Source: Stomorhina lunata (lineage: Eukaryota; Arthropoda; Insecta; Diptera; Rhiniidae). Taken from it: DNA of 64,000 nt. The stretch lies in NCBI GenBank assembly GCA_933228675.1, contig OW121743.1, positions 90,393,998 through 90,457,997 of the forward strand, read 5' to 3'. How positions within the stretch are numbered: the first letter of the stretch is position 1; each line of letters opens with the position of its first letter. The position numbers and the translations under genes are program-made. Positions 6,453 to 9,400 of the stretch are shown here, in pieces. The notes below the pieces were generated by a model. That model did not search any database. It saw nothing but the letters and a program-made list of their open reading frames with translations, and was not told where the DNA came from.

Positions 6453-9400
6453 GTAAGTATTTGTTTAAGGTTCTATTTATATCTGTCGTTTATAAGAAAG
6501 TTGTCATAATACAAAAAATGTAGTAAAGTAATTTATATTTTACCTCCCAAAAGTATACAATACATTTTTGAAAAATTTAATGCAAAAATAGAAAATTTTT
6601 TAAAAATTTCCTTAAATATAAAAAAATTTTGAAAAATTTCCTAAAAAATAGAAAATTTTTGAAAAATTTCCTAAAAAATAGAAAACTTTTGAAAAATTTC
6701 CTAAAAAATAGAAAATTTTTGAAAAATTTCCTAAAAAATAGAAAATTTTTTTAAAAATTTCCAAAAAATAGAAAATATTTAAAAAATTTCCTATAAAAAA
6801 AAATTTTAAGCTTCCTATAAAAATATAAAATTTTTGAAAAATTTCCTATAAAAATAGAAAATTTTTGAAAAATTTCTTATAAAAACAGAAAATTTTTGAA
6901 AAATTTCCTATAAAAATGAAAAATTTTTGAAAAATTTCCTATAAAAATAGAAAATTTTTGAAAAATTTCCTACAAAAATATACAATTTTTGAAAAATTTT
7001 CTATAAAAATAGAAAATTTTTGAAAATTTTCCTATAAAAATAGAAATTTTTTGAAAAGTTTTCTATAAGACTAGAAATCTTTTGAAAATTTTCCTATAAG
7101 AATAGAAAATTTTTGAAGAATTTGTTATAAAAATAGAAAATTTTTGAAAAATTTCCTATAAAAATAGAAAATTTTTGAAAAATTTCTTATAAAAATAGAA
7201 AATTTTTGAAAAATTTCCTATAAAACTAGAAAATTTTTGAAAAATTTCCTATAAAACTAGAAAATTTTTGAAAAATTTCCTATAAAAATAGAAAATTTTT
7301 GAAAAATTTCCTATAAAAATATAAAATTTTTGAAAAATTTCCTATAAAAATAGAAAATTTTTGAAAAATTTTCTATAAGAATAAAAAATTTTTCAAAAAA
7401 TTCCTATAAAAATAATTTTTTTTAAAAAGGTTTATCAAAATTTGGGACATCAAACATTTAATTAAAAAGTAATAAATAAAGTAATAATTCGTATTTATTC
7501 AGTCCCTCAAATTATACATAATGTGAGGTTTTCGCTCTGTCTAGAATTAGGGATAATCCTCCTGATGAGATGGTCTAACCAACCATCGAAACGCGTCGAG
7601 GAAAGGTTTCCCCACCAACATTTTTTGGTTTTATCAAAAAAGTATTTATTACAATTATAAATAATTGTAATAAATTGGGATTCTTAGTGCAATACACTAC
7701 AGTAAAACTTTTTAATTAAATGTTTGATGTCCCAAATTTTGATAAACCTTTTTAATAAATATACGGCTGCACATGTGCCAAGCTTTAAAATAAACTTTTG
7801 TTTATTTAAATCTTTCTTTGAACCCCCTTTATAGCACTTTTGTCTTAGTCGCCAACAAAGCAACAACAAAAGTGTGGGAAATAAAGAAATGATAAAACTG
7901 AAAAATGTTTGTGTGTTTCTGTTCGGATGATAATCTGCGCTTTATGTTGATATTTGTTGGACACAATAATAATAATTCGTATTTATTCAGTCCCTCAAAT
8001 TATACATAATGTGAGGTTTTCGCTCTGTCTAGAATTAGGGATAATCCTCCTGATGAGATGGTCTAACCAACCATCGAAACGCGTCGAGGAAAGGTTTCCC
8101 CACCAACATTTTTTGGTTTTATCAAAAAACTATTTATTACAATAATAAATAATTGTAATAAATTGGGATTCTTAGTGCAATACACTACAGTAAAACTTTT
8201 TAATTTTTTTTAATTGTCTTTAAAAATTGATCTTATTCGACTAAAAGCTCTTTTACTTCCAAGCTTTTTAGCAACATTTATGATTTGTTCTTTTATTATC
8301 ACAAATTCAAGCCTTGAATTTGATTAATGTTCAACATTTTTTTTAACAATTTTTTCCTTTTCTTCTTTACAGCGCCCCCTGAGTGTGAACCGGGTCAGAT
8401 AAATTGCGGCCAATATGTATTTAATAAAACTTATTGTATACCACCGCATTTTCGTTGTGATATGACAGAGGATTGTGAAGACAAATCGGATGAGGCTCAG
8501 TGCAGTAAGTCCATAACTTTTACAAAACTTTATATATAAATTTGAAATATTGAAAAAAAGAATCTTGAACTTTAAACAAAACGATATAAAAAGCTAAAAA
8601 AAAGAGCTTTTGATAAATGTTGTATTTTTAAAGGGAATAAAACAAACTTTGTATAAATGTTTAACTTTTTTATTAAAAAAATTTCTGTTTAATCTTTCTA
8701 CTGCAATTTGGCCTAATTTACTTGCGAACAGCAAAAAAAAACTAATTAAAAAATATTTTGCTTAATTACATGAGATCCTGGGCTTTTTATTACTTTCCTA
8801 TATTTTAGGCTAACAGTTTTTTTCTTTTACTATTATATTATAGCATAAAAAAAGGTTTAATTTTAACAAAAATTTATTGTTATTTAATGAGTACAAAAAT
8901 GTTTACCAATTACGTGTCTGAACTCTACAAATTTATCTTTGTACAGAAAATAAATAAATTTTCGTTAAGTTTTTCCTTTTTATAGGTATAGAAAGGGGTT
9001 TTTGTTTGTATGTGTTCCTAGTTTGAGCTATCTCATAGTATGTGTGTGTGTATTTTAAATCCTTATTTTTATTTCCTGGTAGTTATCAAATATTTTTTAT
9101 ATTCTTTTTATTTTACAAAACAAATTTTTTACTTTGTATTAATAAAATAAGGGTTTACTTTGAATGTTTTTTAAAACATCTCATATATGTACAAATTAAC
9201 TCATCGCTTATTTATGTGAATAGTGGGATAACTCAAAATATGACTTTTTTATATCCAGTGCTACATAAAATGAGGCTTTGGCCAAAACTTCAATTATATA
9301 AATTCCGGAGTCTAAAAACGGCATTTATTTTCGATCGAAATCTAAAATATTTCAGAAGCATTTGTGAAGCATACTTTTAGGATAATCTAAATAATTTATA

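Follow-up and report, generated by a model that had tools for sequence, protein, structure and literature searches.

The window, by which we mean the whole 64-kb stretch of Stomorhina lunata DNA that was analysed, carries part of the megalin/LRP2 gene. The exons at 6270-6452 and 8373-8504 were read from their splice signals, both encode LDL-receptor class A modules, and the LRP2 identity comes from the PDB match of a later exon. The intron between them holds an insertion in the order inverted tail end, pseudo-LTR (pLTR), body, pLTR (Table 1). The direct repeats, the body, the inverted end and the candidate duplication together are one mobile-element insertion, with a hammerhead ribozyme motif in each pLTR. 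A preliminary description of this DNA had placed two hammerheads here, in tandem at 488 bp and in the sense orientation of megalin, with cleavage after 7597 and 8085. The splice signals, the exons and the LRP2 match agree with this placement, both motifs lie in the sense orientation of the gene, and a GUC ends at each of the two positions.

Table 1. Features of the megalin/LRP2 intron and of the insertion that it holds (positions in the window)
Feature	Position	Strand	Basis or remark
Host intron of megalin/LRP2, phase 1	6453..8372	+	Splice signals and flanking exons
Left candidate target-site duplication, TAATTTTTTTTAA, 13 bp	7413..7425	+	Exact match to 8201-8213
Inverted, extremely 5'-truncated end	7422..7470	-	49 bp identical to the reverse complement of 7707-7755
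Direct pLTR copy 1, 236 bp	7482..7717	+	2 differences from 7970-8205
Hammerhead motif 1	7550..7612	+	Motif scan; predicted cut 7597/7598
Palindrome in pLTR 1, 32 bp, 15-bp perfect arms 2 nt apart	7644..7675	+	
Non-coding body, 252 bp; with the pLTR, the 488-bp unit	7718..7969	+	
Tail, 3'-terminal extension at most measured insertion ends	7718..7759	+	22/26 insertions extend 34-46 nt beyond the pLTR
9-bp stem with A/C-rich loop	7835..7874	+	Sequence
Recurrent 5' end of insertions, body 161-164	7878..7881	+	5/23 insertions
Direct pLTR copy 2, 236 bp; the insertion ends here on the right without a tail	7970..8205	+	Repeat comparison
Hammerhead motif 2	8038..8100	+	Motif scan; predicted cut 8085/8086
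Right candidate target-site duplication, TAATTTTTTTTAA	8201..8213	+	Exact match to 7413-7425

The inverted end consists of the last 11 bp of the repeat and 38 bp of the tail, with the tail facing outward, and the left duplication overlaps its first bases. Both differences between the pLTRs fall outside the hammerhead motif, and their low number suggests a recent arrival. Copy 2 is identical to 40 full-length matches in the genome. Stop codons interrupt all six frames of the body; the longest stretch without one, 74 aa on the minus strand, and four other peptides from body and pLTR gave no Pfam match at E ≤1. The GC content is 31% in the insert and 16% in the intron flanks, most of which is minisatellite; the 31-bp minisatellite at 6564-7414 abuts the insert and makes up much of the flanking intron. 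The 13-bp duplication is itself low-complexity sequence. Random 25-bp pairs share at least 13 bp in 43 of 2000 draws from the window (0 of 2000 among the intron's own flanks), so the duplication is weak evidence when taken alone.

The 63 nucleotides of the two hammerhead motifs are identical. Each contains the core CUGAUGA (at 7562 and 8050), a helix II of 6 bp (GAUGGU/ACCAUC) with a 7-nt loop, followed by GAAA, and a helix I made of 5 bp (UCCUC/GAGGA), a 3/6-nt internal loop and 4 bp (GGGA/UCCC). Both motifs have the parts of a type I hammerhead, namely CUGANGA...GAAA, helices I and II, and NUH before the cut. In the region of helix III, GAAA-CGCG-UC, no more than a single A-U pair can form, closing a palindromic CGCG tetraloop, and neither motif has a stable helix III as a monomer. 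The earlier claim that every conserved element is present thus stands for the core, helix II, GAAA, GUC and helix I and fails for helix III. To call the ribozymes intact was too strong, since helix III is nearly absent and the hammerhead-competent monomer makes up 0.3% of the 63-mer ensemble in a nearest-neighbour model.

A near-absent helix III is a published exception in the motifs of Penelope-like elements (PLEs) and of newt and axolotl (passages of PMC7761336 and PMC7229834), and, judged by its sequence, the ribozyme is of this PLE/newt kind. Minimal hammerheads without helix III are described in tandem in the pLTRs of PLEs, where they may cut as dimers (PMC7761336), and double hammerheads are said to require tandem copies whose stem III loop is a palindrome (PMC6466107). 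With at most one A-U pair and a palindromic loop, the present ribozyme probably acts as a dimer. In the energy models used, which include neither tertiary contacts nor metal binding, the best fold of the monomer consumes core bases and has -18.4 kcal/mol, against -15.6 for the hammerhead fold. A double hammerhead joined through ACGCGU reaches -39.7 kcal/mol, better than two monomer hammerheads (-31.2) and two monomer best folds (-36.8), while the best non-hammerhead dimer fold is better still (-42.6). When the whole insert is folded, helix II is predicted at 0.85-0.98 in both copies, and helix I at 0.61-0.70 in copy 1 and only 0.06 in copy 2.

A scan of both strands of the 64 kb for CTGANGA, a helix II of at least 3 bp and GAAA matched only these two motifs. 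A looser type-I descriptor also matched twice in the window, and at least once in 7 of 200 Markov resamplings. Among 42 viral-contig loci with CTGATGA...GAAACGCGTC strings, which served as a chance control, none has helices I and II both of at least 4 bp. The hammerhead motif and the 236-bp repeat had no match in viral contigs or in prokaryote genome contigs, as expected of a eukaryotic element. Rfam at gathering thresholds, hammerhead models included, gave no match in the window; the preliminary description had named such an outcome as one that would refute its ribozymes, and formally this is the outcome obtained. At E ≤10 the sole hammerhead matches are to Hammerhead_3, one per copy (15.6 bits against a threshold of 48.5, E 4), drawn as type III with other helices. 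We tentatively ascribe the low score to the lack of a helix III.

The host genome (728,027,400 bases, 104 contigs) was searched with the 236-bp repeat. At least 40 full-length matches of 100% identity, all on contig C1, and two shorter ones were found among 40 scored of 1354 first-look candidates; such copy counts are lower bounds, the unscored candidates being unconfirmed. The chance of two hammerheads arising by accident, previously called negligible, is therefore the wrong test, because the copies are one 236-bp repeat whose sequence occurs at least 40 times elsewhere. An independent double origin of the motifs is rejected, since both sit in this repeat, with its two differences. Nor is the pair a feature of megalin: the motifs are repeats of one insertion from a high-copy family.

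The 30 loci mapped are the best-scoring matches, all on contig C1, and are no random sample; locus L076 was picked for its head-to-head appearance. Ends were measured at 27 of the 30, L049-L051 being dropped as parts of the same array, and since L048 and L052 are the two ends of one array, the 27 loci represent 26 insertions. The same tail is present at 22 of these best-match insertions (for L069 it was taken from the locus map, because an indel had halted the automatic measure). The other four end 0 (L044), 1 (L065), 8 (L070) and 26 nt (L064) past the pLTR. A look-alike of the tail at 13660-13699 of the window is within chance, as 3 of 60 shuffles score as high. The genome also holds a tandem array of five exact pLTRs at 488-bp spacing. 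In the loci L043-L075, some of which overlap, 53 hammerhead cores are identical, as follows from the choice of these loci as best matches.

The 5' ends of 23 insertions, listed by hand with the head-to-head loci L063, L068 and L072 left out, vary across the unit. Five of them fall together at body 161-164, and 5 of 20000 random sets are as clustered; this recurrent end is perhaps the transcription start of the element. All 23 lie more than 3 nt away from the ribozyme cut site, so there is no sign that cleaved RNA is what inserts. Five head-to-head insertions were found (the window, L063, L068, L072 and L076), and each has one tailed and one untailed 3' end. In L076, three pLTRs in one direction stand head-to-head with one partial and two whole pLTRs, one outer end being tailed and the other not. 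Inverted ends of at least 18 nt occur in none of the 30 mapped loci beyond L063, L068 and L072.

Target duplications were compared at the 18 insertions whose ends the automatic measure had placed cleanly (L044, L048, L061, L069, L070, L063, L068 and L072 left out). At least 10 bp are common to both flanks of an insertion in 6 of 18 cases, against 11 of 306 cross-paired flanks, and at least 7 bp in 11 of 18, against 73 of 306, the flanks being of low complexity. Target duplications are enriched and vary in length; several loci lack them or have lost them. A diverged element copy at L059:2918-3236 has a broken hammerhead core and is 86% identical to a stretch of the body and 80% identical to the pLTR (3017-3236); this copy suggests earlier activity of the family.

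Our preferred reading, held with high confidence, is a young, high-copy, non-autonomous PLE insertion whose 488-nt non-coding, retrozyme-like unit carries a minimal type I hammerhead. The marks given for PLEs are tandem pLTRs, an adjacent inverted pLTR, an optional 31-bp tail and 8-10-bp duplications in some rotifer copies (PMC3846280), and a curation guide likewise gives inverted pLTRs and short 3' extensions (PMC8969392). The present family has tandem direct pLTRs or partial tandem units, an inverted pLTR piece in some copies together with an optional 3' tail (30-40 nt in PLEs), variable 5' truncation across the 23 insertions, and short variable target-site duplications in some copies, with none at several loci. 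Passages of PMC11167929 describe the PLE tail as the stretch between two reverse-transcription start sites and the targets as A/T-rich; the stem-loop in the body is, by analogy, a possible counterpart of the A/C-rich stem-loop of PLEs given there.

The 252-bp body has no frame for a telomerase-like reverse transcriptase with a GIY-YIG endonuclease, which leaves the element as a non-autonomous PLE at most. An autonomous PLE sharing this pLTR was not found, and a search of the same genome for the GIY-YIG family gave two matches. One we take to be SLX1. The other, a 143-aa fragment at C2:141353859, is presumably PLE-like and looks like the C-terminus of Penelope. In its 7-kb surroundings there is no hammerhead core, and the best alignment with the element, 19 nt at E 0.004, is not significant. 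This fragment lies at L075:4291-4722 (G000:C2:141353859-141354092), and a 135-bp near-palindrome at 4230-4364 (93%) overlaps its start.

Instead of an independent non-autonomous lineage, the element could be an internally deleted copy of an autonomous PLE with the same pLTR, as the pLTR, the tail and the hammerhead are all parts of a PLE. However, the body contains no Pfam domain and precedes the pLTR, whole or 5'-truncated, at other mapped loci including the five-unit array, so the 488-bp unit itself propagates, and we regard an internal deletion as unlikely. A second reading, which overlaps with that of a non-autonomous PLE, is a strict metazoan non-LTR retrozyme, whose tandem repeats of ~300 bp carry a type I hammerhead and spread by way of abundant small circular RNAs, in which case the PLE-like ends would be incidental. 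The family does have the short non-coding tandem unit with a type I hammerhead that characterises such retrozymes, as well as the array of five exact units and the low GC of 31%, and retrozyme-like repeats are reported in insects among others (PMC7229834). Its unit of 488 nt is longer than the ~170-400 nt given for retrozymes in PMC7229834, yet circles of 150 to >1000 nt are allowed in the same source. The tails, the head-to-head ends and the partial second unit belong to the features of PLEs, and most invertebrate retrozymes, described as cutting as monomers, have a stronger helix III (PMC7229834, PMC7761336). This reading has a serious chance of being right, if one short of even.

The 49-bp perfect inverted repeat around copy 1 could also be taken for the ends of a short terminal-inverted-repeat DNA element (MITE) at 7422-7755, with a hammerhead, beside a second partial copy. 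But copy 2 has no inverted arms, the best duplication just outside the arms is an unconvincing 5 bp of A/T, and the 26 other insertions have variable 5' ends and not two fixed ones. A MITE is thus contradicted by the genome copies and by the lack of a duplication beyond the arms; we reject it as most improbable. Hardly better is the prospect of a host-domesticated intronic ribozyme that regulates megalin processing, as proposed for the RECK and CTCL introns of amniotes (PMC6155905). The intronic sense orientation and the unmutated state of both motifs would fit it, but the repeats differ at only 2 of 236 positions, and the identical repeat copies elsewhere in the genome, at least 40, led us to reject it.

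For the non-autonomous PLE, the following pathway is proposed. The element RNA would be made from its own promoter or be carried in mgl pre-mRNA. Single hammerheads would cut poorly, their helix III being too short, and two copies would associate by their palindromic ACGCGU and cleave as a double hammerhead. Such cleavage may trim the RNA to 488-nt monomers, which could be ligated into circles. Most likely, a PLE enzyme copies the element RNA in trans, the reverse transcriptase and endonuclease being supplied by an autonomous PLE. Copying would start at one of two sites about 40 nt apart, giving tailed or untailed 3' ends, and the enzyme would insert the copy in A/T-rich DNA. The hammerhead of an Anolis PLE is reported to cut only in the presence of protein, and mutating it left insertion in vitro unaffected (PMC11167929).

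More tentatively, the family might link retrozymes to Penelope elements: a retrozyme unit would pass through a 488-nt circle made by the double hammerhead and be mobilised by a PLE. As the insertions carry the PLE tail and head-to-head ends, a PLE enzyme would be what mobilises the retrozyme unit, and copying the circle several times over would produce the exact multimeric arrays. We rate this link below an even chance. The mobilising enzyme of animal retrozymes is described as open, with PLEs a strong candidate from shared features and co-occurrence (PMC7229834). In a single genome, many loci here show a non-coding hammerhead unit with PLE insertion ends, so the idea of PLE mobilisation can be tested directly. 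The head-to-head pattern, with one tailed and one untailed end in 5 of the 5 found, bears on the two-site start of copying in PLEs.

With PLEs such as Poseidon of Anolis and the Pen families of Adineta vaga, the element shares tandem pLTRs of about 200 bp, an inverted partial 5' copy, a tail of 30-45 nt, A/T-rich surroundings and a minimal type I hammerhead in the repeat. In contrast to them, it lacks a reverse transcriptase/endonuclease frame and its unit is only 488 bp. The metazoan non-LTR retrozymes of coral, mussel and axolotl, as described in PMC7229834, are alike in their short non-coding tandem units, type I hammerhead, low GC and many copies. The present unit is longer than the ~170-400 nt given for them and ends with a PLE tail, and its cleavage and circles are predictions. 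The hammerhead of the newt/axolotl satellite, HHR_Amex1, shares the one-bp helix III, the palindromic tetraloop and the expected action as a dimer (PMC7229834), whereas its host phylum is another and its unit is about 330 nt (PMC7229834).

Plant LTR retrozymes also have two hammerheads flanking a non-coding body, but these are of type III, and the elements have true LTRs and 4-bp duplications and are described as probably mobilised by Gypsy (PMC7229834). The amniote hammerheads in RECK and CTCL share the type I fold and the intronic site; they are conserved host features (PMC6155905), whereas here we have a young multi-copy insertion. Self-cleaving hammerheads are also present in dipteran genomes according to PMC7936874, but they are of type III, and the passages of that source which concern them describe no tandem pLTR arrangement. 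Among titles and abstract beginnings in the open-access literature, no earlier report of the present family was found, and its novelty is provisional.

For megalin, the insertion is probably neutral and little effect is expected, because it is intronic and lies upstream of an apparently intact 3' splice site. The 49-bp inverted repeat (7422-7470/7707-7755) would form a duplex of about -67 kcal/mol in the energy model. This duplex would clamp the 488-nt product to the upstream megalin pre-mRNA, so a clean release of the 488-nt RNA from that transcript, which the preliminary description foresaw without remarking on the inverted repeat, is doubtful.

A/T-rich minisatellites occur across the window. 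Most have 31-bp units, many with a TTTTCTATAGAAAA-like core, and examples are the arrays at 6564-7414, 1280-2149, 3699-5223, 27750-29239, 31170-33409, 34912-37426 and 39238-41388. A 29-bp tandem array with a partly palindromic unit lies at 11096-11864 (26.6 copies, 95% matches), and a long TTATAATGCA-type array occupies the end of the window at 61649-64000.
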